A DNA stretch of 41,064 bases from Bacteroidales bacterium (lineage in GTDB: Bacteria; Bacteroidota; Bacteroidia; Bacteroidales; WCHB1-69): assembly GCA_017650305.1 (NCBI GenBank), contig JAGCFD010000047.1:1-41064 (forward strand), read 5' to 3'. Below, piece by piece: positions 3,126-34,659 of the stretch; within the stretch, counting starts at the first letter, position 1; each line of letters opens with the position of its first letter. The notes beneath the pieces were generated by a model that saw only the letters and a program-made list of their open reading frames with translations, ran no database searches and was not told the origin of the DNA. A program made the position numbers and the translations under genes.

Positions 3126-3198
3126 GCCGATATAGCTCAGTTGGTAGAGCAGCTGATTTGTAATCAGCCGGTCGTGGGTTCAAGTCCCTCTATCGGCT
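3126..3198 (+). tRNA. tRNA-Thr (anticodon TGT)
   Basis: A 73-base cloverleaf: acceptor stem GCCGATA/TATCGGC, D-arm AGCTCAGTTGGTAGAGC, anticodon stem GCTGA/TCAGC around loop TTTGTAA, and T-arm with GGTTCAAGTCC. The TGT anticodon reads ACA. CCA follows the discriminator T at 3199-3201, so the 3' end is encoded. Confidence 0.97.
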
Positions 3199-3221
3199 CC
3201 AGGCATAAAGAAAATATTGTT

Positions 3222-3303
3222 GGGAGAGTTCCAGAGCGGTCAAATGGGACAGACTGTAAATCTGCTGGCTAAGCCTTCGGAGGTTCGAATCCTTCCTCTC
3301 CCA
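3222..3303 (+). tRNA. tRNA-Tyr (anticodon GTA)
   Basis: An 82-base class II tRNA: acceptor GGGAGAG/CTCTCCC with discriminator A, anticodon stem CAGA/TCTG around the GTA anticodon, and an extended variable arm (TGGCTAAGCCTTC region), as bacterial tyrosine tRNAs have. The 3' CCA is not encoded. Confidence 0.96.
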
Positions 3304-3315
3304 CTTGTTTTTTAT

Positions 3316-3388
3316 GCGGAAGTAGCTCATTTGGCAGAGCGACAGCCTTCCAAGCTGTAGGTGGCGGGTTCGAGCCCCGTTTTCCGCT
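3316..3388 (+). tRNA. tRNA-Gly (anticodon TCC)
   Basis: A 73-base cloverleaf: acceptor GCGGAAG/TTTCCGC with one G-U pair, anticodon stem ACAGC/GCTGT around loop CTTCCAA, and T-arm GGCGGGTTCGAGCCCCG. The TCC anticodon reads GGA/GGG. CCA is not encoded. It is the last member of the Thr-Tyr-Gly cluster. Confidence 0.96.
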
Positions 3389-9226: not shown

Positions 9227-11698
9227 TCATCTCACCACCGTCACTCTTCCCGTCACGTCCCTTGTCTCGTGTCCGCGGCTCTTGTAGCGGATGAAGACCA
9301 CGTATGTGCCTATGGGCATGCCCGCGGCGTCCCAGCCCTGGTCCAGGCGCCGTGTCATGTACTGCACCATGCCACCGCGGTCGTAGATGGTCATCTCGAA
9401 GCTCTCCACCTCGTCAGGGTAGGCAAACACCGGCAGGAATAGGTCGTTGAGACCGTCCCCGTCGGGCGTGAAGCTGTTGGGCATCCAGAGCTCTTGGTCG
9501 CACGGCTCGTACTCCACCACTATGTCATCGCCATGCTCGAAGCACTGGTTGGTGGCGGTGACACTGTAGGTGCCTGGGTATCTTACCGTGTAGGTGGACT
9601 GCGTGCTGCCGTCCTGCCACTCGTAGTCGCACCAGGGGTTCTCAGCCGAGAGGAGCAGCGTCCTGCCCTCGCAGATCGTGGTGTCGGGGCCGAGATTGAC
9701 GGTGAAGTCAGTGAGGTATCCGATGGCGATGGTGTCGGAGGCGCCGAGGCAGTGGTCGGTGATGACGACCCAGTACTGGCCGTCCTCATAGACGGTGTAG
9801 GTGGTGTTGGTGCTCAGGTCCTGCCACTCGTAGGTGGCGGGGTGCGGCTGGGTGGCGTCCAACAGGAGGGTGGCCAGCTCGCAGAGGATGCTGTCGTTGC
9901 CGAACTCCACGGACGACTGCGGGTAGAGGTCGATGGTAAAGAGGTCGCTCTCGGCCTTGCAGCCCAGGTTGGTGACGGTCACCGAGTAGGTGCCCGCGCT
10001 GTCCACCGTGATGGCGGGTCCGGAGGAGCCGTCGCTCCAGAGGTAGCTCAGCACGTTGGGCTGCTGCACGGAGAGCTGCGCTCCGTGGCAGAGGGTGTCG
10101 TCATGGCACACCTCGAAGATGGGCGGGGGCACCACAACGATGAAGGTGGTGGTGGTGTCGGGACAGTTGTCGTAGTGCAGCACGAGCTGGGCGGTGAGGG
10201 TGTCCACGGAGGGCAAGAGGAAGGAGAGTTCTTGTCCCATCCCGACCATGTAGGAAGTACCCTCATAAATCCATTCGAGTGGAATATTGTCGGGGTTGTA
10301 CTCCACCTTGAGCACAAGCGTGTCGCCTACGCAGCGATAGACGGTGTCGGAGTCCAACATGCTCAGATTGGAGTGGGCGTAGGGAAAGTCATGAAAATCA
10401 TAACCCGATGAATTGTGCATGGCATAGGCAAGTCGAAATGTTGGATTCCGGGTGTAGCCAATCTCTGAAATGTAGGCGGTGAAACCATGGGGGTTTTCTA
10501 TGGTGATATAGTCGGGCAGACTGTCGCTATCATACCAGCAAAGTTGAGCTACATAATATTCCCCATTGGTGGCAGGGAAAGTATCGAAGGAACTTGCAGG
10601 GATTATATTTCCGTCAAAAAATGTGCTATTCAGTCCGTCGGCATGTACAAAGATGGTAAGATCCACATAAGAAGTATCAATCCAGGGCGCTGAAGAGGAG
10701 AAAGTGTTTTTGGTTATCGGATAATCCCAATGGGTTACCATTTTTTCGGTTGGATGATGTAGAGAATGATTATAATACCCTGTGTCGCCTATGCATAAGT
10801 GTATGTACATCAAGCTGGGATTCGCATATCGATCATACGCATATATCACCGAATCGAACAACGGATAATCGTAGTTGTCATGATACAAATAGGTGTCATA
10901 ATTTCCATTTGGATAAGGATATCTGGAAACTGGCGTCGAATTTCCAATCAATCTTGAACAAAAAAAACGGTTGGAAAATGCCTTGACCATAAAGTCTTGT
11001 CCTTTAACGATATTAAGGTCAGGAGGATTTGAGAAGGACGGTGCGTGTTCAACGCCCGTAAAAACGGCGATTGGTTTGCAGTTTGTGTAAATAGTGTACT
11101 TGTCGTTAGGGTTATGATAAATGAAGCAGATATCCCCTCGGTTCAAATGAATCATCCAGTTGCCCCGGTAAATAATCGTACTGTCCTCGATGGCCAAAAC
11201 GTAAAAATCTCCAGACAACACGCTCCATATCTCCTCGTTGAATTCCTTGAGAAAATAGTCTTTTGGAAAAAGTGTTAGCTTAAAAGGGTAAATGTAAACC
11301 CAATGATTGCTGTAAGAGGGGGACTGGACCCATGCTTGAACGTTCACGTCAGTGTGGATATATAAAGAGAATCCCTGCAACTTTATATGATAAAGTTCTC
11401 CTGGATTGTATTGAGGTTGAAAAACCAGTTCTTCTTCTGAAACAGCTATTTTCACAAGAGAATCAGGGTAGATATTGAAAGGAATGTACGTGGAGGAATG
11501 TGGATTTTCAATATATCCTGTGCCAGCGTGATGACCGAGTATATAAATGTAGGCGGAGTCCACGCTTGCATTGTAGATAAAGCTGCCTATCATGCGCTTA
11601 ATGCCGCACGTGAGCCAAAACTCCTTTCCTTCATACTGGGCGTGAAGGGAAAGGCCAAAGGCACATAGGGCCATGCAGGTTACGAACAGGCGTCTCAT
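9227..11698 (-). CDS. T9SS cargo: IgGFc-binding-like head, Ig-like repeats, gliding-type C-terminal domain
   Basis: Large surface protein of 823 residues, probably exported by type IX secretion. Signal peptide: about residues 1-21 (MRRLFVTCMALCAFGLSLHAQ; core LFVTCMALCAFG). Residues about 25-330 begin YEGKEFWLTCG and resemble the IgGFc-binding N-terminal domain seen in Bacteroidota adhesins. From about 450 come repeated Ig/PKD-like modules with the pattern YEWQDGST...TYTV...GTYSVT. The last 88 residues (from ELWMPNSFTPDGDGLNDLF) are a gliding-motility-associated C-terminal domain. The ATG 11698 is preferred over one three codons upstream. The 5' half is AT-rich and the 3' half clearly GC-richer, suggesting a mosaic gene. 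It lies 1 base after a small secreted-protein gene. Confidence 0.85.
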   Translation of the reverse strand: MRRLFVTCMALCAFGLSLHAQYEGKEFWLTCGIKRMIGSFIYNASVDSAYIYILGHHAGTGYIENPHSSTYIPFNIYPDSLVKIAVSEEELVFQPQYNPGELYHIKLQGFSLYIHTDVNVQAWVQSPSYSNHWVYIYPFKLTLFPKDYFLKEFNEEIWSVLSGDFYVLAIEDSTIIYRGNWMIHLNRGDICFIYHNPNDKYTIYTNCKPIAVFTGVEHAPSFSNPPDLNIVKGQDFMVKAFSNRFFCSRLIGNSTPVSRYPYPNGNYDTYLYHDNYDYPLFDSVIYAYDRYANPSLMYIHLCIGDTGYYNHSLHHPTEKMVTHWDYPITKNTFSSSAPWIDTSYVDLTIFVHADGLNSTFFDGNIIPASSFDTFPATNGEYYVAQLCWYDSDSLPDYITIENPHGFTAYISEIGYTRNPTFRLAYAMHNSSGYDFHDFPYAHSNLSMLDSDTVYRCVGDTLVLKVEYNPDNIPLEWIYEGTSYMVGMGQELSFLLPSVDTLTAQLVLHYDNCPDTTTTFIVVVPPPIFEVCHDDTLCHGAQLSVQQPNVLSYLWSDGSSGPAITVDSAGTYSVTVTNLGCKAESDLFTIDLYPQSSVEFGNDSILCELATLLLDATQPHPATYEWQDLSTNTTYTVYEDGQYWVVITDHCLGASDTIAIGYLTDFTVNLGPDTTICEGRTLLLSAENPWCDYEWQDGSTQSTYTVRYPGTYSVTATNQCFEHGDDIVVEYEPCDQELWMPNSFTPDGDGLNDLFLPVFAYPDEVESFEMTIYDRGGMVQYMTRRLDQGWDAAGMPIGTYVVFIRYKSRGHETRDVTGRVTVVR

Positions 11699-11699
11699 A

Positions 11700-11951
11700 T
11701 CAGTCAAAGATTACAATCTTTTTTACATCTTCGTTTCCCTCTTTATCCACGGCATGAATCTGTGCGACAGATATCATATGATTCGGGTCAGTCTGGAAAA
11801 AATAAACCTTTCCGTCACTATGAGCAATGTATGCAGTACTGGTAGGGTGTGTTATATACCAATTAGAGTGATAATTCCAATACTGGTTCTGCGCCACGCC
11901 ACCGAGCGCAAATCCAACCAACAGGAAGAAAAGGGTGAGATTCTTTTTCAT
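11700..11951 (-). CDS. Small secreted protein of unknown function (possibly truncated)
   Basis: An 83-residue protein with a clear signal peptide (MKKNLTLFFLLVGFALGGVAQ; core LTLFFLLVGFALGG). The mature part is only about 62 residues, aromatic-rich, and ends KKIVIFD. I do not recognise a family with confidence. Its stop lies one base before the start of the large T9SS cargo gene, so the two are probably translated from one mRNA. The mature part could be the N-terminal remnant of a longer surface protein that lost its 3' end when the next gene arrived. Alternatively, it is a genuine small partner. Confidence 0.6.
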   Translation of the reverse strand: MKKNLTLFFLLVGFALGGVAQNQYWNYHSNWYITHPTSTAYIAHSDGKVYFFQTDPNHMISVAQIHAVDKEGNEDVKKIVIFD

Positions 11952-13184: not shown

Positions 13185-16100
13185 CTATTGCTTCATAATC
13201 TTGGTCGTGACGACACCGTCTGTGGTGACGATGCGCACTTGGTAGAGACCGGTGGCATAACCCGACAGGTTGAGGGTAGCCTCCGTGTCGTTGACGCTCA
13301 TCGTGCCAACCAGTTTGCCGAAGGTGTCGTGTACTTGTACGGACTCGATCAGGACTCCGTTGGCAGTGAGATGACATACGTTGGCGGTCGGGTTGGGATA
13401 GACCGTGCAGATGATGGTCGCATCTTGAATGCCCGTGTGCGTCATGGTGACCACAGCACTGTTGACCATGCCCTCTTTCATGGCGATGGCCTTGACGGTG
13501 AACTCGCCGCCGTCATGCGGGATGGCGGTGGTGTAAAGGGTGGCGTTCACGTCAGGCATGGTGCCATCGAGCGTGTAATAGATGGAAGCTCCATCCGTGG
13601 TGCAGGTGATGGCTACCGTCACGTTGCCGTCGCCGTTGTCGGTGATGGTGATGACCGGCGTGGCCACGGTGTCTTGGGTGACGGTGATGAAGGTGATGTC
13701 GTCATTGTCGCGCGGTGCGATCTGGTAGTTGCCTTCATATTGCAGTACGAAGCCCACTATGTCGGCATGCTGTCCGGCGGGGATGGTCATGTCGAGGGTC
13801 TTGAAGTCGTTGCGACACTGCAGGGTCTCTCCGTTCTGCTCAATGATGAGGTTGTTGGCGGTGCTGGTGTTGTATGCGCCGCCCTCGGTGAAGACCACGT
13901 CGGTGAGCTTCACGAGACGGGACTCATAGACATAGTACTGGGCCTCGATGGTCTCGATGTCCACCTCTACAGGGGTGATGGCGCCCACGTTGCTGGTGGC
14001 AGTGGCGGGGTTGGCCAGCGGGACCATCTCCACAAGGCCGTGGTATAAGGAATAGGTGCCGCAGATGCCACCGCTGATGACGTCACCTTCGTTGTATTCG
14101 TTGGTGATGTTGCCATTCTGGTTGAAGATGAGCAGTCCGCCCGTGGCATCCTGGACGTAGATGTTATTGCCGTGCTGGAAAACGAAGGTCACATCGCCCG
14201 TGATCTTATACGGGGTGCTGTTGGTGGCGGTGTTGGCAGCCTTGAAGGCAGCGATGTTGGCCACCTCCGTCGGGAAGGTATAGGTGGCGGTGGCCACATT
14301 GCTCGGGGTCATGGAGCCGAAGAAGGCCATGGCCTTGACGGTCGTGGTGGTGTTCACCGTGAAGGGAGCGCTATACAGCGTGGAGGTGCTCGTCGGCGTG
14401 GTGCCGTCGGTGGTGTAACGGATCTCCGCACCGGCGGTGGCGCAGGTCATGGACACCGTAACAGGCTCCAAGTAGCTGCCGCTGTTGGGGGTGATGACCG
14501 GCATCTCTACCGTGGAGGAGGGAGCGCTCGGGTAACCGAAGATGTTCACACTGTCGATATAGACTCTGGAGGTGCTCGTCGGGGCCGTGGCAGGCAGCGC
14601 TATCTCGAACTTGAAGCGTACGTTGTCAAAAGAACCGGTGCTGCTGACTTCCATGTTGTACATGGCCAAGGTGCTGCCCAGCTCGAAGAGGTTGGGGGTG
14701 CTGTAGGTGTTGCCGCCATCGGTGGAGTAGGAGACGTTCACGTTGAGGCCGTTGGTGCTTGCTGCTGCAAACTGGATGCGGGAGGCGTGGGCCACGTCGA
14801 AGTTGGTGTAGGTGTAGCCTAACGTGGTGGCGGAGGCGACGTACCAGCGCATCTGCATGGATTGTGCCCCTTGGATGGCGCCCGTGGTGGCCGGTGTGCC
14901 GAAGACGGTGCCCCATTGGTGACCGGCAGCGCCGCTGAAGGTTACGTCTGGGTTGTTGTAGACGGTGGCGGCGACGAAGCCGTCGGTGGCCTCAAAGCCA
15001 GTGTGGTATAGCAAGGTGTCGTTGTAGTCGGGTGTCGGCGGCACGGGGGCCACGATGGTGTAGGTGGCGGTGACCACCTCGCTGTTATCCCAGCCACTCA
15101 GCATGGCGATGGCCTTGATGGTATGCTCGCCCACCGTATTCAAGGTTATGGCGCTGTTGTAGAGCGTGCTCGTGGCGTCGGGCGTAGTGCCGTCCATGGT
15201 GTAGCGGATCTGAGCACTGGCATTGTCGCTGTTGATGGTGACAACGATCAGCGTGTCGCTGGCGCCGCTGGCAGGTGTGAACACGGGTGCGGACAAGGTG
15301 GCGGTGCCAGTGAGCGCAATGGTGTGCGTCAGTGTGCCGCTGGCGACTGTCAGCGTGCCCGTGGCGGGCTCGGTTCCGTCAAAGGTGACCGTCACCGTGG
15401 TGTTGCTGTTGGGGTTGCTGATGGTGGCCGGACTGGCGGTGAAGTGCGTGCTGCTGCTCGTGATGGCAATGGCATCGGTGAGGTGTGCGCCGCTGACGGT
15501 GAAGGTCTGTGTCAGTTGAGCACTGTTGAAACTCAAGGCAGTTTCGCTAACTGTCAGAACGGGCTCATAGACCACCGTGTAAAGACCTGTGGCGGTCTCG
15601 CTGTCTGCCCAGTAATTCTTGAAGGCCTTGGCCTTGAGAGTCGTGGTCGTCGTCAGCGTGATGGGGTTTGCATAGAGCGTGGAGGTTGCGGTAGGCTCAG
15701 TGCCGTCGGTGGTGTAGCGGATCTCAGCACCCGTGGTGCCACAGGCGATGGATACCGCCACGCTGTCAGCGTAGGTGCCAGCCACTGGAGTGAAGGTCGG
15801 TGTGGGCAGCTGCGGCATCGTCACCGTGAAGGTGGTGGTGGCAGAGACTGCCGGGGTGAGCGGAGCCTGTGTCATGTCCACTAAAGCGGCCGTGATGGTA
15901 TGCGTGCCGGCAGGCAGCGGACTGAAGACCGACTGTAATAAGGTGGTGAGCCCAGTCTGGTCCAGATAGAGCGGGTTGGTGAGACCCGCGGAAGTGAGCA
16001 GCGGAGACTCAACCTTCAGATAGCCATCGGTGCCCAACACGAAGTTGGTGATGTTGATGCCAACAGGCAGGGTGTCCAGACTGCTGAAGTTGGCTCCGTT

Positions 16101-17486
16101 GGCCGGAGCGGTGATGGACAATGTCGGCTGAGGCGTGGGAACCGTGGCCGCCAAGTCTTGGTTGTTACGAGGATATATCTGGATGCTGGTGCCGTAAATG
16201 GCCGCGAAACCGGTGACGTTGGTCACCGTGTTGGCGGCTAAGGTGGTGTCAAGGGTGAAACGTTTGTAGAGGGTTATCTGATTGCTGCCCTGTGTGATGT
16301 CCGTGGAGTTGGCACCGGTGAAGCCGTTGGGGAAGGTGACGTTCTCCAAGGTGATCAGCTGGGCGTCATATTGGCTGTAGTTGGCCAACAGCTCGCTCAT
16401 CGTCACGGTGATGGGGGTCACGGTGCCGGTGTTGGAGGTGGCGGCGGCAGGATTCTGCACGTTGGTCATCTCGATCTGTCCTTGATACTGGGAGAAGGCA
16501 CCTGTCAGGTTGCTGATCTGGTCGCCTTCGTCAAACTCGGTGGTGAAGCCGGGACCATAGACCAACAGGCCGGCGGTGGCGTCCTTGACGTAGGTGTAGT
16601 TGCCGCTGTGGAAGACGAAGGTGACATCGTTGGCGATGGTGTAGGGCTGGCTGCCGGCAGTCAAGGCCTTGAAGGCTGCGATGTTAGCCACTTGTGCCGG
16701 GAAGGTGTAGGTGGCGCTGGTGACAGGACTGTCGCCATAGCCAGTGGCAACGGCGAAAGCCTTGACAGTGGTCGTCTGGCTGACGGTGATGGGGGCGGAA
16801 TAGACGGATGAGGAGGTCGTGGGGGTGGTGCCGTCCAGGGTGTAGTAGATGGTGGCACCCGTGGTGGCGCTGCTCATTGTCACGCTGACAGGCTCCGTGT
16901 AGGTGCCCGCAGCCGGTGTGAAGACCGGCGCTGCCGTGGAGGTGATGCCGGTGTTCTGCGTGATCACCACGTTGTCGAGGAAGAAACGGCCCTTGGCAGC
17001 CTGCTTGCCCTCGAACTTGATCGTGGTTGCCGCCGTGCCGCCTGTGAGCGTCAGCGTGAAATGCTGCATCGTCTCATAGCTGGGATTGGAAGAAGGATGC
17101 ACGTTCGACAATCCTGTTACCAAAGTGGGCGTTCCATTGACGTACACCTTGATGGTGGTGGAGTCGTTGTGCCAGGCGGTGGCATCGAAACTCAAGGTGA
17201 AAAGACCATTGTCGTTGGAAAGGTCGATGGCGGGAGTCTGGATCCAGCCCAAAGCGCTGGATGTGCCCATCTTCACCTTTCCTTTGAAATCATAAACCCT
17301 GGAGCCTGTCCAGCCCGTCAGGGCGGTGTGGTTGTCCAAAGTAGAGGCGATGTCGTTATTCGGCAGGGAATCGGAGAATCCGCTGAAGTCCTCCTGGAAA
17401 ACGATGGTCTGACCTTGCAGGGTCGTGAAACCTAACAGGATAACACACAAGGTGATAAACTGTTTGAGAAGGTAATGCTTTTTCAT
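13185..17486 (-). CDS. Large multidomain T9SS type A cargo protein
   Basis: Predicted secreted protein of 1433 residues. After a signal peptide ending LQGQ (about residue 26), it has a jelly-roll-like domain (about 27-175), then repeated chitobiase/hexosaminidase-C-terminal-like Ig modules, each with YYTLDGTTP or RYTTDGT and TVKA. Two copies of a module begin VANIAAFKA and contain DVTFVF and VQDATGGLL or VKDATAGLL (DUF5689/OB-like), and a second jelly-roll begins near YHTGFEATDGF. The last 75 or so residues (VYPNPTANVCHL to TTKIMKQ) are a Por-type sorting tail. No catalytic domain is visible. Likely surface-attached, with binding roles. A promoter is seen at 17534-17564 and a terminator-like repeat after the stop. 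Confidence 0.88.
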   Translation of the reverse strand: MKKHYLLKQFITLCVILLGFTTLQGQTIVFQEDFSGFSDSLPNNDIASTLDNHTALTGWTGSRVYDFKGKVKMGTSSALGWIQTPAIDLSNDNGLFTLSFDATAWHNDSTTIKVYVNGTPTLVTGLSNVHPSSNPSYETMQHFTLTLTGGTAATTIKFEGKQAAKGRFFLDNVVITQNTGITSTAAPVFTPAAGTYTEPVSVTMSSATTGATIYYTLDGTTPTTSSSVYSAPITVSQTTTVKAFAVATGYGDSPVTSATYTFPAQVANIAAFKALTAGSQPYTIANDVTFVFHSGNYTYVKDATAGLLVYGPGFTTEFDEGDQISNLTGAFSQYQGQIEMTNVQNPAAATSNTGTVTPITVTMSELLANYSQYDAQLITLENVTFPNGFTGANSTDITQGSNQITLYKRFTLDTTLAANTVTNVTGFAAIYGTSIQIYPRNNQDLAATVPTPQPTLSITAPANGANFSSLDTLPVGINITNFVLGTDGYLKVESPLLTSAGLTNPLYLDQTGLTTLLQSVFSPLPAGTHTITAALVDMTQAPLTPAVSATTTFTVTMPQLPTPTFTPVAGTYADSVAVSIACGTTGAEIRYTTDGTEPTATSTLYANPITLTTTTTLKAKAFKNYWADSETATGLYTVVYEPVLTVSETALSFNSAQLTQTFTVSGAHLTDAIAITSSSTHFTASPATISNPNSNTTVTVTFDGTEPATGTLTVASGTLTHTIALTGTATLSAPVFTPASGASDTLIVVTINSDNASAQIRYTMDGTTPDATSTLYNSAITLNTVGEHTIKAIAMLSGWDNSEVVTATYTIVAPVPPTPDYNDTLLYHTGFEATDGFVAATVYNNPDVTFSGAAGHQWGTVFGTPATTGAIQGAQSMQMRWYVASATTLGYTYTNFDVAHASRIQFAAASTNGLNVNVSYSTDGGNTYSTPNLFELGSTLAMYNMEVSSTGSFDNVRFKFEIALPATAPTSTSRVYIDSVNIFGYPSAPSSTVEMPVITPNSGSYLEPVTVSMTCATAGAEIRYTTDGTTPTSTSTLYSAPFTVNTTTTVKAMAFFGSMTPSNVATATYTFPTEVANIAAFKAANTATNSTPYKITGDVTFVFQHGNNIYVQDATGGLLIFNQNGNITNEYNEGDVISGGICGTYSLYHGLVEMVPLANPATATSNVGAITPVEVDIETIEAQYYVYESRLVKLTDVVFTEGGAYNTSTANNLIIEQNGETLQCRNDFKTLDMTIPAGQHADIVGFVLQYEGNYQIAPRDNDDITFITVTQDTVATPVITITDNGDGNVTVAITCTTDGASIYYTLDGTMPDVNATLYTTAIPHDGGEFTVKAIAMKEGMVNSAVVTMTHTGIQDATIICTVYPNPTANVCHLTANGVLIESVQVHDTFGKLVGTMSVNDTEATLNLSGYATGLYQVRIVTTDGVVTTKIMKQ

Positions 17487-23978: not shown

Positions 23979-24058
23979 TTTTTTTTGAGAATCGACTGCA
24001 ACAATCGGAAGGCTTATTCGTTATTATAGATGTTACTTTGAATCAAATTTCTTGGAAT

Positions 24059-26365
24059 ATGAAAAAATCTCTGGTGCTATTGTTGTTTATTTCTCTTGTG
24101 GGCATGCTGGCAGCCCAAAATCCGACTCCTTATAATGGTACGCCGCCTACTTTCAACACGTTTGACGCCAATTATGTGAGGTGCAAGTATAAGTCTGGAT
24201 CTAGTAGTTGGGCTGGGTGTAATACCTCAAACCAAATCTGGAAGTACAACACCTCTGGCTCGAATTATACATGGTATCAGACAACATATACGGCAACATA
24301 TAACAATGCTACTACAGGCGTGCTGAATAGCGGTACAGACTTTAGCCATCGTCTGATTGTGGGACAAAATGCAAACTTCCCCGGCACTGGCGTGGTGAAC
24401 GGTCGTGACAAGTGCATGTGCTATCAGGTAGGTAATAATTATGTACAGGAATATGTGATGCCCTATGGCGGTTGGGATGGCAATCCGAATACAACAAACG
24501 ATGCCATTGACACGATTATCCAAATTGGAGGTCCTGTCAATCAAGGAAAATGTTCCCAGTCCATCGAGTATTGGTTCAAGCCGGATACGAATAACAGTGT
24601 GTTGATGGTCATGTTCTCCTTTGCGCAAGAGAAGGCCTGCCACGAGGTATGGTATAATCCATTCTTCACCATCGAAGTGTTGGACCAGAACTATAATCTT
24701 TTGAATTTGGGTTACTATTCCAATTTGAATGGCCAGCCTATGAGCAACCCCAGCAATGCCAACTATTGGCCCTATTCCCAATTCTTGATAGTCCCCATCC
24801 CTGAATGTTCGAGTTATCCGTCCATCCCATATTGCAGAGCCACCCCTTCCACATACGACTATTATGGCACCAATGCCCAAGACCTTGCTTTCCAGATCCA
24901 CTCTTGTCCGTCTGGTCAGTATAGTGGTCAGATTCCGTCAACCGCGTATCATGGTAGCATCAATTGCGAATGGTTCCAATATACGCCGATTGCTTTTAAC
25001 TTGACAGAGCAAGCCCGCAACAACCAGACTGTCATTTTCCGTGTGAAGGCAACTGCATGCCAAGCCTCATACCACTGGGCCTACGGTTACTTTGCAGCCA
25101 AGATGGTGCCTGCCTATATTCAAGTGGATGCCTGTACGAATGAGCTCTCCCTCTCTGTGCCTTATGGATTCCGCCCTACATCGTATCAGTGGTATGCAGG
25201 AGTGGACTCTGCCAGCGCTTCCTATAAAGGAGAGTATGAAGGTATGCGTGACCTTGTGCTGAACAGCGAGAATGGAACCCGTATTTATCCCTACTACCGT
25301 TGCGAGATGCTCTCCATGACTGGTGTGCCTTTTGTCTATGAGGCATACACCAAGTTCTATGACTTGACTCCTTATTTCAACTACGTGCAGCTCAAACAGA
25401 ATTGTGATTATAAGGTGAGTTTCTCTGACAGCAGCACCATTATGCTGCGTTCTCCTGCAGCAGTGGCAGGTGGTAACGAAGACACAACGTATCAGACAAC
25501 CCAGCTTATCCGGTGGTACAACCTGATTCCCAATGCAACAGGAGGTTATGATACGGTGCTGTTTGCCGAAAACAATAATACTCCCCAATTCACTTATGCT
25601 AGTCCGGGAGATCATCAGGTGATGATTTCTATTTGGGATAATGATCATACCTGCTCTGCCGATACCGTTCTGACCATCCATCTGGATTCGCTCATCTCCG
25701 GTTCTGGCGTGGATACTATATTCACCTGTGAGGAGAATCTGCCAATTATCTATGATCAAGCAACCTTTGGGGAACTCTACACCTGGCATGAGTCGGGAAC
25801 GCGAACAGTTATCTACCCCGGAGGCACATGGAATGGTTGCGACAGTATCGTGGAGGTGAATCTGACAGTGCAAAAACCGAAGGTCGAAATCGCTGTGGGC
25901 GCCGACTATTGTGACAACTTCACCACGACCTTGACCGCTGTCTCCAACGTGGATGTGGAAACATACGAATGGAACACAGATGCCAACACACCTACCATCG
26001 ACGTTATAGAACCGGGTGACTATGCGGTGACCATTACTGACGAGGGCGGATGTGTGGCTGGAGCTACGGTGACGATCCCCGCCTGTACTCCCTTCGTGAA
26101 TCTGCCTAACGCCATCACACCCTCCGACTACAATGGTCTGAACGATGTGCTGACATTGCCACAGAAGAATTTGATTCAGTCTATAGAGCTTACCATCCTC
26201 AATCGCAACGGCGAGGTGGTTTTCTATACCACGAGCAAGGACTTTGAATGGGACGGCCGTGTCAACGGCAAGCTCTATGTGAACACCGTTTACAACTATA
26301 TCTTGAAAGTGGTGGACTACAATGATTACGCCACGATGTTCAGGGGGTCGATTACGGTGTTGTAA
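24059..26365 (+). CDS. T9SS cargo with gliding-type C-terminal domain
   Basis: Predicted secreted surface protein of 768 residues. A signal peptide (MKKSLVLLLFISLVGMLAAQ) is followed by a long Tyr/Asn/Thr-rich N-terminal region of unrecognised fold. A Cys-bearing module near residue 560 ends NGCDSIVEVNLTV, the same type as in the giant repeat protein at 37079. The last 90 or so residues (NLPNAITPSDYNGLNDVLTL onward) form a gliding-motility-associated C-terminal domain, here with SDYNG in place of the usual DGDG-like loop. It follows clpX on the same strand but is separate in function; a strong terminator comes after it. Confidence 0.85.
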   Translation: MKKSLVLLLFISLVGMLAAQNPTPYNGTPPTFNTFDANYVRCKYKSGSSSWAGCNTSNQIWKYNTSGSNYTWYQTTYTATYNNATTGVLNSGTDFSHRLIVGQNANFPGTGVVNGRDKCMCYQVGNNYVQEYVMPYGGWDGNPNTTNDAIDTIIQIGGPVNQGKCSQSIEYWFKPDTNNSVLMVMFSFAQEKACHEVWYNPFFTIEVLDQNYNLLNLGYYSNLNGQPMSNPSNANYWPYSQFLIVPIPECSSYPSIPYCRATPSTYDYYGTNAQDLAFQIHSCPSGQYSGQIPSTAYHGSINCEWFQYTPIAFNLTEQARNNQTVIFRVKATACQASYHWAYGYFAAKMVPAYIQVDACTNELSLSVPYGFRPTSYQWYAGVDSASASYKGEYEGMRDLVLNSENGTRIYPYYRCEMLSMTGVPFVYEAYTKFYDLTPYFNYVQLKQNCDYKVSFSDSSTIMLRSPAAVAGGNEDTTYQTTQLIRWYNLIPNATGGYDTVLFAENNNTPQFTYASPGDHQVMISIWDNDHTCSADTVLTIHLDSLISGSGVDTIFTCEENLPIIYDQATFGELYTWHESGTRTVIYPGGTWNGCDSIVEVNLTVQKPKVEIAVGADYCDNFTTTLTAVSNVDVETYEWNTDANTPTIDVIEPGDYAVTITDEGGCVAGATVTIPACTPFVNLPNAITPSDYNGLNDVLTLPQKNLIQSIELTILNRNGEVVFYTTSKDFEWDGRVNGKLYVNTVYNYILKVVDYNDYATMFRGSITVL

Positions 26366-30442: not shown

Positions 30443-31030
30443 TTAATGTTTGATTTTGGAAAGCCAACTCTCGCTGTTGGTGTTTTCGTATTTGTCTAAA
30501 GCTGTGAAGATATCCTCTACGGTATCCACAAAGTAGGCTAGATTTTTGTGGAATGCTCTGAGAAAACCCTCTTCCATGAAATGGTCCAGCAGAGCCAACA
30601 GGTGGTCGTAGTAGCCGTTAGGGTTATAAACGATGATGGGTTTCTTGTGCAAGCCCAATTGCGCGTCCGTGATGATTTCGAAGAACTCGTCCATGGTGCC
30701 GTATCCGCCCGGGAAGATGACAAAGGCGTCGGCGCGTTTTTCCAGGAGCTGTTTGCGCTCGCTCATGGTCTTGACGTAGATCATCTCGGTGATGTTGTCG
30801 GCGAGCACGGGACCCATCTTGAAGAAATCTGGAGCCACCCCTATGACAGTGCCGCCTTGCTCCATCATAGCCTCAGCAACCACTCCCATGATGCCAATGC
30901 TGCCCCCTCCGTAGTAAAGGGTCATCTCTTTCTGAACCATAATGCGGCCGAAAGTGACGGCGTCAGCTGCATAGTCAGGGTTGTTTCCTCTGGCGGAACC
31001 GCAAAATAAAGCAATGGATTGGTGGGTCAT
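30443..31030 (-). CDS. LOG-family nucleoside 5'-monophosphate phosphoribohydrolase
   Basis: A 195-residue Rossmann-fold enzyme of the TIGR00730/LOG family. It begins with the phosphate-binding segment IALFCGSARGNN and has the diagnostic PGGYGTMDEFFEI motif, a TLYYGGGSIGIMG loop and LGLHKKPIIVYN. LOG enzymes cleave N-glycosidic bonds of nucleoside 5'-monophosphates; in plants they activate cytokinin, while in bacteria the role is housekeeping nucleotide turnover or unknown. The start overlaps the pssA stop by 4 bases, so the two genes are likely translationally coupled. Confidence 0.92.
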   Translation of the reverse strand: MTHQSIALFCGSARGNNPDYAADAVTFGRIMVQKEMTLYYGGGSIGIMGVVAEAMMEQGGTVIGVAPDFFKMGPVLADNITEMIYVKTMSERKQLLEKRADAFVIFPGGYGTMDEFFEIITDAQLGLHKKPIIVYNPNGYYDHLLALLDHFMEEGFLRAFHKNLAYFVDTVEDIFTALDKYENTNSESWLSKIKH

Positions 31031-31743
31031 ATATTTTGGAATTTAATGATAGCGTGATAAATGAGACATATCAGCAAATAGCTGAGAATGATGATGGGAA
31101 ACGAGCTCCATCGGAATATGATAAAGAGTAAGATGCCCAAAGCCATGATGACATAACGGACAATGTTCTCTCCTTTGAACTCAAAACTTTTGAATTTGAG
31201 GGATATCATGTTGATTTCGCTGACTAACAGCAGGGCAAACAGGATTGCAAGAACCCAGACCACCCAGAAGTTGTTCAGGAAAGGGACTTTTTCGGCCGCA
31301 AAAGGTATGAAGGCGAGGAAAAGAGCGTTGGCAGGGGTGGGCAGTCCAATGAAGTTGGTATGCTGCCGCTCATCCATGTTGAAACGGGCCAGCCTGACCG
31401 CCGAGAGTGAAGGTATGAGGAAGAGCGTGTAGGGCAGCCAACGCAGAATGCTCTCATGGAAGATGGCAGGCATCTCGTAAAAACAACGGCTGAGCCATAC
31501 AAAGACAATCATCGCAGGCGCCACGCCGAAAGATACGATGTCTGACAGGGAATCAAGCTCTTTGCCAATAGACGAAGACACGTGGAGAAGCCGGGCTGAG
31601 AAACCATCCAGAAAATCAAAAACCGCTGCTGTGATAATCCATAGTGCTGCCGTCTCCAGATTTCCCTTCAGAGAAGTCATGATGGAGATGCATCCGCATA
31701 CTAAGTTCAGGCAGGTGAGGGTGTTGGGGATATGCTTCTTCAT
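31027..31743 (-). CDS. pssA: CDP-diacylglycerol--serine O-phosphatidyltransferase
   Basis: Makes phosphatidylserine, the precursor of phosphatidylethanolamine, in the inner membrane. The 238-residue product starts MKKHIPNTLTCLNLVCG and contains the CDP-alcohol phosphotransferase motif D-x2-DG-x2-AR-x8-G-x3-D-x3-D, seen as DFLDGFSAR then GKELDSLSD. About seven or eight hydrophobic spans. It begins 9 bases after the stop of the HU-SPOR gene and overlaps the LOG gene. This neighbourhood groups phospholipid and wall-related functions. Confidence 0.95.
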   Translation of the reverse strand: MKKHIPNTLTCLNLVCGCISIMTSLKGNLETAALWIITAAVFDFLDGFSARLLHVSSSIGKELDSLSDIVSFGVAPAMIVFVWLSRCFYEMPAIFHESILRWLPYTLFLIPSLSAVRLARFNMDERQHTNFIGLPTPANALFLAFIPFAAEKVPFLNNFWVVWVLAILFALLLVSEINMISLKFKSFEFKGENIVRYVIMALGILLFIIFRWSSFPIIILSYLLICLIYHAIIKFQNI

Positions 31744-31752
31744 AGCGCTTTG

Positions 31753-33288
31753 TTATTTAAGTACCCAATAATGCTTGTTGATGCTGTCGATGAAAGCTTG
31801 TGCTTCCTCTTCGGTAGGATAGATGCCGATGCAGATCCGGATGTTTTTGACGCCGTCTTGCAACACCAGGGTAGGGGAGTATTGTGCCAATCCAGTCTGG
31901 CGAATGTGAGTCTCTACATCTTTTTCTGATTGGAAACTGCCAGCGATGACGTAAAAATGTCCTTGCTCAAATTGAATGTAAGGATATTTTTTGTCTGCTG
32001 TTAACCGAAGCGTGTCGGGGATATAGACGGCAGGGGTGTCAACCTCTTCGGGCTCAATGATATACAAACTGTCGTCAAGCGTAATGGCGTCTGTCTCTTG
32101 AGGCTGAGATTCGATTACCTGGTCGCTGCTTCTTTTGTGCGGCAAATGATCTAAAATGTCCATTACCTGTTGGCGTAAGATGAAAAATAGTACAGCCGCC
32201 GCAGCCAATAGGAGTAAGAGCAGGATCCATGGCCATATACGTCTTTTGCGTTTGCCGGTATTCTCTTTTGGATCGTCATCACCATGGGAAGTGTCTGTCT
32301 CTTCATCGGACTCGGGCTCTTCCACGGGTTCCGGCTCTTTAACAGCAAGCGGCTCTTCAACCGGCTCTGGCTCTTCTGCGGGCTGGGGCTCGGCAATGGA
32401 TGCGGGCTCTTCCGCGGCAGCAGGCTCCTCGATAGTGTCCGTCTGGGGCTCCTCGTCCGCCACGTGACTGTATTGGATGACCGGCTCGGGTTCTTCCACA
32501 TGTTCAGGCTCGGCAATGGAAACGGGCTCTTCCTCCATTTCTTCCACCGGTGCTGCAACAGGTATTGTAACGGGTGTCGGCTCTACCACTGGCTCGGGTT
32601 CGGGCTCAACGACAGGTGCAGGCTCTTCCGCGGCAGTCGGTTCTTCAGTCGGTTCTGTCTTGGGTTCCTCGTCCACCACGTGACTGTATTGGATGACGGG
32701 CTCCGGCTCTTCTGCAGGCTGGGGCTCGGCAATGGATACGGGCACTTCCTCCAGTTCTTCCACCGGTGCTGCAACAGGTATTGTAACGGGTGTCGGCTCT
32801 ACCACTGGCTCGGGTTCGGGCTCAACGACAGGTGCAGGCTCTTCCACGGGTTCAGGAGTGTAATCGTCCTCTTCCATGGGAGGAACGGCGCCTGGTATCA
32901 AGGAAAGCGCCTTCATGCCTTCAAACTCTAAGTTGAGGCCTTCTATGGTCTCACTTTCGAAATGAATGTCCCCTTTGACCAGGGAGAAGGTGCCAAAACC
33001 TTCAAAAGTGACGCTTTTATTGTTGCTCAAAGCTTGTTTTAGCTCATCCACCCATTGGAGGATTTCAGCATTGGCTTGTGTGAGCATGCACTGGCGCTCT
33101 CGGCAGACCAAATTGGTGAAGATGATCTCTTCGTGGTCTATGTTGGTGTCAAGAGATACCTCGTAATGCGGAGGTAGCAGCGTGTCGCCGTCTATACGAG
33201 CCGACACATAGTGTTTGGTGAATGTGCCGAGGTCGTTGACGTAGATGGATTCGTTCTCTTGAAGGCCTTTGGTGATATAGTGTATCAT
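31753..33288 (-). CDS. HU-like DNA-binding / transmembrane / SPOR protein
   Basis: A 511-residue single-pass membrane protein. Residues 1-130 hold two HU-like domains of the CCDC81-bac type (INDLGTF-like VNDLGTF at 17-23 and FEGFGTFSLVKGD at 95-107). Residues 140-335 are a Glu/Pro/Val-rich linker with a 72-residue duplication (151-222 and 223-294). KRKRR at 347-351 precedes a transmembrane helix (351-371), and residues 435-511 form a SPOR domain (HFYVIAGSFQSEKDVETHIR). SPOR domains bind denuded septal peptidoglycan, so the topology puts HU in the cytoplasm and SPOR in the periplasm. It overlaps kdsB by 4 bases and is followed by pssA. Confidence 0.87.
   Translation of the reverse strand: MIHYITKGLQENESIYVNDLGTFTKHYVSARIDGDTLLPPHYEVSLDTNIDHEEIIFTNLVCRERQCMLTQANAEILQWVDELKQALSNNKSVTFEGFGTFSLVKGDIHFESETIEGLNLEFEGMKALSLIPGAVPPMEEDDYTPEPVEEPAPVVEPEPEPVVEPTPVTIPVAAPVEELEEVPVSIAEPQPAEEPEPVIQYSHVVDEEPKTEPTEEPTAAEEPAPVVEPEPEPVVEPTPVTIPVAAPVEEMEEEPVSIAEPEHVEEPEPVIQYSHVADEEPQTDTIEEPAAAEEPASIAEPQPAEEPEPVEEPLAVKEPEPVEEPESDEETDTSHGDDDPKENTGKRKRRIWPWILLLLLLAAAAVLFFILRQQVMDILDHLPHKRSSDQVIESQPQETDAITLDDSLYIIEPEEVDTPAVYIPDTLRLTADKKYPYIQFEQGHFYVIAGSFQSEKDVETHIRQTGLAQYSPTLVLQDGVKNIRICIGIYPTEEEAQAFIDSINKHYWVLK
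32407..32838 (-). repeat. 216-bp in-frame tandem duplication inside the HU-SPOR linker
   Basis: Two adjoining 216-base copies, 32623-32838 and 32407-32622, encode 72 residues each. Landmarks recur exactly 216 bases apart: CACGTGACTGTATTGGATGA at 32461 and 32677, and CTCTACCACT at 32581 and 32797. Differences between copies are concentrated near VHEEPE/QPAEEP and in the acidic tail. Confidence 0.9.
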
Positions 33289-34037
33289 AGGGGTTTTGAA
33301 TTATCGGATTGCGGATATTGTGCGTTGAATAGCTCCAAGTCTTCAGGGGTGTCGATGCCGATTCCTTGATAGTCGCAGGTGGTGGCATAGATGTCGAAAC
33401 CGTTTTGAAGCCATCGAAGCTGTTCCAATTTCTCTGTCTTCTCCAAAAAGGAGGGCTTTAGTTTCGTGATGGCTTGGAGGGTCTTGAAGCGGTATGCGTA
33501 GATGCCAAGATGCTGGTAACGGGTGACAGGGCCACTTCCGGGATCTCGTTGGTAGGGTATGGCATGGCGACTGAAGTAGAGCACTTTCCCATTGTCGGCC
33601 AAGACAGCCTTTACCACATTGGGGTTGGTTGCCCGATCCTCATCGGTAAAGGGTTTCACCAAGGTGGCGAGGTTGACATCCGGATTCTGGAAAAGAGTGG
33701 TCAGCAGCGAAATCTCCTTGTCGCTGATGCCGGGCTCGTCGCCTTGGATATTCAGTATGACATCCTCAGGGTCCAGGTTGAGGGCGGCGGCCACCTCACC
33801 GCAGCGGTCGGTGCCGGATGGATGGTCGGGGGAGGTCATCATGACTTCCCCTCCGAATGATTGTACGCAGTCGCGGATCAAGGGGTGGTCGGTGGCGACA
33901 ATCACTTGCGACAGCGAAGAACTCTTGACCTGCTCGTACACACGCTGGATCATCGGTTTGCCCTGGATGATGGCCAAGGGCTTGCCCGGGAATCGTGTGG
34001 ACGCGTATCTGGCTGGGATAATGCCGATGTGCCTCAT
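33285..34037 (-). CDS. kdsB: 3-deoxy-manno-octulosonate cytidylyltransferase
   Basis: Activates KDO as CMP-KDO for the lipopolysaccharide inner core. The 250-residue product starts MRHIGIIPARYASTRFPGKP, the nucleotide-binding signature of the family, and carries HPSGTDRCGEVA and NIQGDEPGI. The frame stays open 32 codons upstream, but that region overlaps the deoxynucleoside kinase gene and does not resemble KdsB. The start is 4 bases after the kinase stop, and the stop overlaps the HU-SPOR start (4 bases), fitting a compact operon. Confidence 0.95.
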   Translation of the reverse strand: MRHIGIIPARYASTRFPGKPLAIIQGKPMIQRVYEQVKSSSLSQVIVATDHPLIRDCVQSFGGEVMMTSPDHPSGTDRCGEVAAALNLDPEDVILNIQGDEPGISDKEISLLTTLFQNPDVNLATLVKPFTDEDRATNPNVVKAVLADNGKVLYFSRHAIPYQRDPGSGPVTRYQHLGIYAYRFKTLQAITKLKPSFLEKTEKLEQLRWLQNGFDIYATTCDYQGIGIDTPEDLELFNAQYPQSDNSKPL

Positions 34038-34041
34038 GCCG

Positions 34042-34659
34042 TTACTGGAACAAGCCGAACAATTCGGCATCGATTTTTTCAATGACGGTTCCGAAATCCT
34101 CGGGACGCTCGGCAAATTTGATAGTGTTGACATCTACAATGAGCAGTTTGCCGTCAGTATAGTTGTTGATCCACTTCTCGTACCGCTCGTTCAAGTTTTC
34201 CAGATAAGAATAGCGGATAGTGTCCTCGTAGGCGCGTCCGCGTTTGCCAATCTGCGTGATGAGGGTGGGGATGTCGGCCTTCAAGTAGATGAGCAGATCT
34301 GGTGGTTGCAGAAATTGCTTCATCAATTCAAAGAGGGATTTGTAGTTCTCAAAATCCCGAGTGGCCATCAGATCCATGTCATGCAAGTTCGGGGCGAAGA
34401 TGTAGGCATCTTCGTAGATGGTGCGGTCTTGAATGACGCTCTTCTTGCGCTTGCGGATATCAATAACCTGACGGAAGCGGCTGTTGAGGAAATATATTTG
34501 GATGTTGAAAGACCAGCGTTGCATGTCTTGATAGAAGCTGGCCAGATAGGGATTGTCGTCCACACTTTCATACAGGGCATCCCAGCCATAGTGTTTGGCC
34601 AGCATGTTGGTGAGGGTGGTCTTTCCAGAACCGATGTTTCCTGCGACGGCTATATGCAT
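34042..34659 (-). CDS. Deoxynucleoside kinase
   Basis: Salvage kinase of the deoxyadenosine/deoxyguanosine kinase type, 205 residues. It has Walker A GNIGSGKTT at the N-terminus, the catalytic DRTIYEDAYIFA segment (the ERS/DRS-like motif), and the lid region RGRAYE. QIYFLNSRFRQ also matches the family. It phosphorylates deoxynucleosides with ATP in the cytoplasm; the exact base preference cannot be read. It starts 33 bases after the OPT transporter stop and precedes kdsB by 4 bases. Confidence 0.9.
   Translation of the reverse strand: MHIAVAGNIGSGKTTLTNMLAKHYGWDALYESVDDNPYLASFYQDMQRWSFNIQIYFLNSRFRQVIDIRKRKKSVIQDRTIYEDAYIFAPNLHDMDLMATRDFENYKSLFELMKQFLQPPDLLIYLKADIPTLITQIGKRGRAYEDTIRYSYLENLNERYEKWINNYTDGKLLIVDVNTIKFAERPEDFGTVIEKIDAELFGLFQ

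Follow-up and report, generated by a model that had tools for sequence, protein, structure and literature searches.

FtsN and DamX are inner-membrane proteins with a cytoplasmic N-terminus and a periplasmic SPOR domain; the division machinery of the Bacteroidota is less studied. The HU-CCDC81 families of this phylum and the overall architecture described here are already known, and Burroughs et al. in 2017 reportedly predicted a role in chromosome partition for an HU-CCDC81-SPOR-type protein. In bacteria where their roles are known, SPOR proteins are division or morphogenesis proteins, and a general statement on their layout agrees with that of FtsN and DamX (PMC6895207, excerpted text). Among eukaryotes, CCDC81 members, compared here by description, are ciliary or centrosomal, and CCDC81b was proposed to be a microtubule inner protein in Tetrahymena axonemes in the excerpted text of PMC11961760. 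We analyzed a 41,064-nt stretch of DNA (the window) from a Bacteroidales organism related to rumen metagenome-assembled genomes, which carries a gene of this kind, here designated HU-SPOR.

The HU-SPOR gene (31753..33288, minus strand, as are its domains and gene neighbors located below) is a single open frame with an ATG start, encoding 511 aa plus a stop. Pfam assigned HU-CCDC81 domain 1 to residues 3-45 (33154..33282; PF18174, HU-CCDC81_bac_1, 27.2 bits against a cut-off of 26), HU-CCDC81 domain 2 to residues 59-113 (32950..33114; PF18175, HU-CCDC81_bac_2, 35.9 bits against 35), and a SPOR domain to residues 442-504 (31777..31965; PF05036, 26.1 bits against 21). These are the same two HU domains, in the same order, as in the described bacterial HU-CCDC81 proteins of the Bacteroidota. 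The scores are modest for the window protein, with both HU domains exceeding their cut-offs narrowly; both HU families were matched at E<=0.01 by 51/51 aligned N-termini (window included), and the SPOR family by 45/49 aligned C-termini. Left out of these alignments of 51 and 49 sequences were duplicates (L001, L004, L036, L037, L065, L067), non-HU loci (L002, L061, L066), cut or uncertain starts and fragments (L026, L049, L059, L063, L064), and single-HU proteins (L032-L034), while L043 and L058, each cut at the 3' end, entered the N-terminal set only.

Between the HU pair and the C-terminal domain lie a linker rich in Pro/Glu (residues 136-350, 32239..32883), with a net charge of -65 over residues 131-340, and a hydrophobic helix (residues 351-371, 32176..32238) immediately preceded by KRKRR. 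Within the linker is a tandem repeat (32401..32849) of 2.1 copies of a 216-bp (72-aa) unit, with 88% matches. The initial annotation had described two HU-like domains, an acidic linker, one transmembrane helix and a C-terminal domain of wall-binding type. The Pfam matches and the open frame bear out this order, the charge bears out the acidity of the linker, and both the single strong hydrophobic stretch and the above-cut-off SPOR match support the remainder.

Profile searches against PDB sequences gave an uneven picture of the two HU domains. The HU-pair profile, built from 51 sequences, matched E. coli HU-alpha (6oaj, E 9.2e-6) over profile positions 57-110 only, corresponding to domain 2, which therefore has its fold in common with canonical HU/IHF; domain 1 had no significant match in this search, the sole one being 1b8z at E 0.42. 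As read from alignments, domain 1 lacks the first HU helix; it also lacks the basic arm. The long arm is absent from domain 2, which has an acidic stretch after the GxF turn. The N-terminal 138-aa fragment of the window protein also matched the eukaryotic family HU-CCDC81_euk_1 (27.8 bits, cut-off 26.1), while the whole protein, at 23 bits, fell below that cut-off. The SPOR profile matched CwlC (1x60, E 2.9e-8) and FtsN (1uta, E 4.4e-5).

The window helix was called from its own sequence and by analogy with a hydropathy scan of relatives, in which the equivalent stretch scored 2.7-2.9 (L003, L004, L005). We place the HU part in the cytoplasm because the protein has no N-terminal hydrophobic signal and carries KRKRR before the helix. 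Counting Lys/Arg on either side of the helix gave an equivocal result among 20 genus relatives, with 10 for N-inside, 5 ties and 5 against, so that a cytoplasmic HU part and a periplasmic SPOR domain are likely rather than proven. Like FtsN, DamX and DedD, the protein has one membrane helix and a C-terminal SPOR domain; unlike them, it has its long linker N-terminal of the helix, an HU pair as its head, and an Ile in strand 1 of the SPOR domain. Among the 20 genus relatives, between 88 and 223 aa separate residue 140 from the helix, a measure of linker length. The acidic linker is longer in the window genus than in outgroup HU-CCDC81 members, where the helix mostly starts near residue 160-210.

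This layout had led to the proposal that the protein tethers the chromosome to the cell wall, with the HU pair holding DNA and the SPOR domain holding septal glycan, so that nucleoid position would be coupled to division. The membership of the head in the HU fold family fits this proposal, but its charge does not. The HU pair of the window protein has a net charge of -13, the lowest of the 51 aligned proteins (tied with L005), and none of the 51 is net positive (range -13 to 0, mean -5.3). By comparison, canonical HU proteins were positive in 13/13 cases, from +2 to +12. This set consists of the window genome's own HU (L066, +9) and 12 proteins from Bacteroidota genomes, namely those surfacing as short-frame matches in the PF18175 phylum survey. 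A rank test of the two groups gave p 3e-8, uncorrected for relatedness; the sequences in this test and in the Gln test below are related and hence non-independent. In relatives from other classes, the HU2 domains likewise have values between -18 and 0; those of eight stand-alone HU1 proteins run from -9 to +3, 2/8 of these having been counted with some upstream residues.

The difference extends to the arms. The arm regions of the 13 canonical HU proteins average 8.8 Lys/Arg and 1.3 Asp/Glu, compared with 3.0 Lys/Arg to 2.4 Asp/Glu in domain 1 and 1.75 to 3.4 in domain 2 across the relatives; the window protein has 2 Lys/Arg and 4 Asp/Glu in domain 1, and 1 and 6 in domain 2. The HU-SPOR head thus differs from canonical HU/IHF in being acidic rather than basic, in its reduced or missing basic arm, and in its membrane anchorage. 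At every column of the HU-pair alignment, at most 57% of members have a basic residue. Position 42, beside the PP motif of domain 1, is Lys/Arg in 25/51 proteins (0.49), and three of the stand-alone HU1 proteins exceed the cut-off of Bac_DNA_binding, a model that marks the fold rather than tested binding. A conserved arm-tip proline was considered as a sign of DNA binding and dropped, since it is also absent from 8/13 canonical Bacteroidota HU proteins; nor did the invariant P40 hold up as the tip proline, as alignment with stand-alone HU1 proteins suggests that P40 is the later proline, after the arm. The assumption that the HU-like domains bind DNA therefore retains its fold assignment and is weakened by the acidic pair and by arms poor in Lys/Arg. 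A charge count can still leave room for a local DNA site on an acidic protein.

The SPOR domain also departs from its characterized relatives. When crystallized with glycan, the RlpA SPOR domain is seen to touch the sugar through the side chains of Q270 and of a cluster of arginines, with main-chain contacts also of importance, and Gln is favored at the Q270 position across SPOR sequences (all from the excerpted text of PMC6895207). The corresponding strand-1 position in the window protein is Ile448, and Gln was found there in 0/83 HU-linked SPOR domains. These comprise the 49 aligned domains (Ile 36, Met 6, Val 6, Ala 1) together with 13/13 domains of a spaced class sample and 21/21 other-class domains in which the residue is likewise Ile, Val, Met or Ala; L162, the remaining one of 22 other-class frames, yielded no SPOR column. 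The class sample was of 40 loci, approximately every fourth among the matches listed, after two partial entries had been swapped for others and two more included. Among its SPOR domains without HU, 21/27 carry the strand-1 Gln, as read by motif on the matched segment, and a Fisher test of HU-linked against unlinked domains, using 11 HU-linked domains read by eye, gave p 1e-5. The motif reading replaced a whole-frame HMM alignment of the unlinked domains, in which 17/27 were placed (7 with Gln, 10 without) and several were misplaced. All 20 of the top-scoring SPOR domains taken as a first control have Gln, but this set is biased to the Pfam consensus and is not relied upon. The six unlinked domains without Gln (L176, L181, L192, L201, L202, L203) lie in frames of 452-542 aa; Gln loss is thus typical of HU-linked SPOR domains, not unique to them.

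By sequence alignment only, R484 in the window protein is the likely equivalent of FtsN R285, a single residue of the basic patch, and Arg occupies this position in 24/49 aligned members. A Trp near the C-terminus, W508 in the window, is found in 44/49. The statement of the initial annotation that the SPOR domain binds denuded septal glycan thus keeps its family assignment and R484, and is weakened by the loss of the strand-1 Gln; glycan binding by HU-linked SPOR domains is possible and, judging from these residues, probably altered. Only two SPOR genes were found in the window assembly (84.65% complete), HU-SPOR and L002, the latter having kept the Gln and starting with a signal-like hydrophobic N-terminus. 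In the complete relatives G057 and G154, the single SPOR match (E<=0.001) shares its frame with the HU match.

Taken as a whole, the nucleoid-to-peptidoglycan tether draws on the two domain families, on the probable cytoplasm-to-periplasm layout, and on the reported 2017 prediction of chromosome partition. Against it are the acidity of both the HU pair and the linker, the missing basic arm, the lack of a widely conserved basic column, and the absent strand-1 Gln, and our search of the open-licence literature found no experimental report of it. The domain order and the SPOR family thus stand, while the DNA-binding signs and the Gln do not, and we consider the tether unlikely.

We instead favor, at about an even chance, an inner-membrane SPOR protein with the layout of FtsN and DamX, in which a cytoplasmic head, a single helix and a periplasmic SPOR domain would be arranged in series and the HU-fold head would bind a protein partner. 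The head would be a paired HU fold that has lost its basic, DNA-gripping arms, and its ligand would more likely be a protein of division or envelope synthesis than DNA. The linker, long, acidic and rich in Pro/Glu, may lend the head reach from the membrane, and the SPOR domain may anchor the protein at remodeled peptidoglycan, perhaps with a changed ligand preference. A protein-binding head is favored because the HU pair is acidic, with few Lys/Arg in the arms and no widely conserved basic column, and because the eukaryotic HU-CCDC81 relatives are structural proteins. Counted against such a head are the basic residue at position 42 in about half of the proteins and the three HU1 proteins that pass Bac_DNA_binding; counted against the explanation as a whole are the lack of independent recognition of domain 1 in the PDB search and the equivocal positive-inside count.

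A broader version of this explanation is that HU-SPOR proteins form a Bacteroidota-wide subfamily that has moved off both textbook ligands, its paired HU domains binding protein and its SPOR domain lacking the Gln. Such a protein would span the envelope as an adaptor in place of FtsN-type proteins, and would parallel in bacteria the structural, rather than DNA-related, role of eukaryotic CCDC81. We advance this only tentatively, and would lean somewhat against it.

The gene is conserved among close relatives of the window organism. HU-SPOR was found (E<=0.001) in 22/23 same-genus genomes and 6/16 same-order genomes, or 29/40 including its own, and the single same-genus genome without a match is 59% complete. 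Across 198 genomes sampled evenly from the phylum, PF18174 (E<=0.001) was matched in 36/49 from the same class, counting the window organism's own, and in 4/149 from other classes; this census counts domain 1, with SPOR linkage established for only part of those genomes. PF18175 alone also catches ordinary HU (102/198 genomes) and gives no clean census.

Purifying selection acts on the HU-SPOR gene and is strong in its HU part. Against L004, dN/dS was 0.03 for the HU part, 0.05 for SPOR and 0.13 for the linker; against L003 it was 0.07 for HU and 0.14 for SPOR, and against L005 it was 0.04 for HU. The 36 codons around the helix gave 0.93 against L003, a value based on very few changes, and several other region comparisons were saturated.

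In other classes of the phylum, the head is divided between two genes. At 22/23 such loci (L150-L169 and L032-L034), HU1 is encoded by a small gene of its own, directly upstream of and on the same strand as a gene for HU2, the transmembrane helix and SPOR, with the matched stretches <=~60 nt apart. The HU1 model was built from 11/22 of these loci and recovered the remaining eleven with E values no worse than 5e-19. At the 23rd locus, L163, HU1 is matched only in part and no HU2 frame was recognized. Pfam scores are weaker for the split form, its HU1 proteins being assigned to Bac_DNA_binding and not to HU-CCDC81_bac_1 (16.8 bits for L161, cut-off 26). For the split forms, HU2 passes the PF18175 cut-off in 1/3 tested and SPOR passes its own in 3/3. 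Fusion in one class and gene adjacency elsewhere suggest, by the fusion/fission argument, that HU1 and HU2 work as a pair and that HU domains 1 and 2 are probably one paired unit.

The gene neighborhood was examined for indications of a partner. The initial annotation placed HU-SPOR between kdsB and pssA, and Pfam and TIGR matches confirm both neighbors. The tight row begins with a deoxynucleoside kinase gene (34042..34659, PF01712), followed by kdsB (33285..34037, family match), whose stop overlaps the HU-SPOR start by 4 nt. Downstream, 9 nt separate the end of HU-SPOR from pssA (31027..31743; CDP-diacylglycerol-serine O-phosphatidyltransferase, TIGR00473, 116.9 bits against a cut-off of 107), and a gene for a LOG-like/TIGR00730 protein (30443..31030) overlaps pssA by 4 nt. 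The kdsB frame itself extends over 33285-34133, and starting it at the first ATG would give a 92-nt overlap with the deoxynucleoside kinase gene; as the family match covers the frame only from residue 33 onward, 34037 is the probable start. The order OPT transporter, deoxynucleoside kinase, kdsB, HU-SPOR, pssA and LOG-like is kept in 11/11 genus-level loci (10 genomes), with holB next in the row in 9/11.

This conserved flanking, together with the 4-nt overlap and the short pssA gap, could reflect a scaffold for envelope synthesis, whose head would recruit or sense KdsB and PssA, enzymes of LPS and phospholipid synthesis, and whose SPOR domain would place them at sites of wall growth. Outside the genus, kdsB lies directly upstream of HU-SPOR in 2/12 loci (L126, L127), but tblastn with the window genes matched neither kdsB nor pssA in the other 10/12, and some of these have ExbB-type or DprA neighbors instead. 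Since the row also holds the deoxynucleoside kinase and holB genes, operon membership may be housekeeping packing, and we regard the scaffold as rather improbable.

At three of the outside loci (L122, L123, L125), an ExbB/TolQ-family gene lies directly downstream of HU-SPOR, with an ExbD/TolR gene confirmed in L122. HU-SPOR might then belong to an envelope system driven by the proton motive force, working with these motors as Tol-Pal does in outer-membrane constriction. According to the excerpted text of a 2025 survey of force-transducer operons (PMC12204202), tol-pal loci are not identifiable in Bacteroidetes, which would make such a link informative and makes the ExbB adjacency worth a wider look. 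Within the stretches fetched, however, the adjacency is confined to 3/12 outside loci and 0/11 genus-level loci, and the motor genes may be part of an ordinary Ton system, so that a motor-driven role appears very improbable. Elsewhere, L118 has a DprA gene upstream on the other strand and a thioesterase gene downstream, and DprA-like neighbors were noted by eye in L119, L120, L121 and L129; the Pfam check of outside neighbors covered ten proteins, of which three were ExbB-type and one DprA. Neighbors vary outside the genus, with no single one common throughout the class. The gene context therefore suggests an envelope role and names no partner or process.

In the open-licence literature, we found no account of what a bacterial HU-CCDC81-SPOR protein does, and no earlier mention of the acidic HU pair, the arms poor in Lys/Arg, the missing Gln or the separately encoded HU1; essential-gene papers on P. 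gingivalis and B. fragilis make no mention of SPOR in the main text seen. If the HU head binds protein, the DNA-tether guess would misdirect experiments, and the charge, arm and Gln results are concrete reasons to try protein partners first, with the separate HU1 gene of other classes offering a ready-made two-protein test of pairing. If the acidic head does bind DNA, the protein would be a physical link from chromosome to wall, and of high interest.

Elsewhere in the window, C-terminal signals for type IX secretion (CHU_C or Por_Secre_tail) are present in three large frames (9227-11707, 13185-17486 and 24038-26365), and the 1433-aa frame among them also has chitobiase-C/Fn3-associated repeats and DUF5689. 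Three consecutive tRNA genes lie at 3126-3388 on the plus strand.
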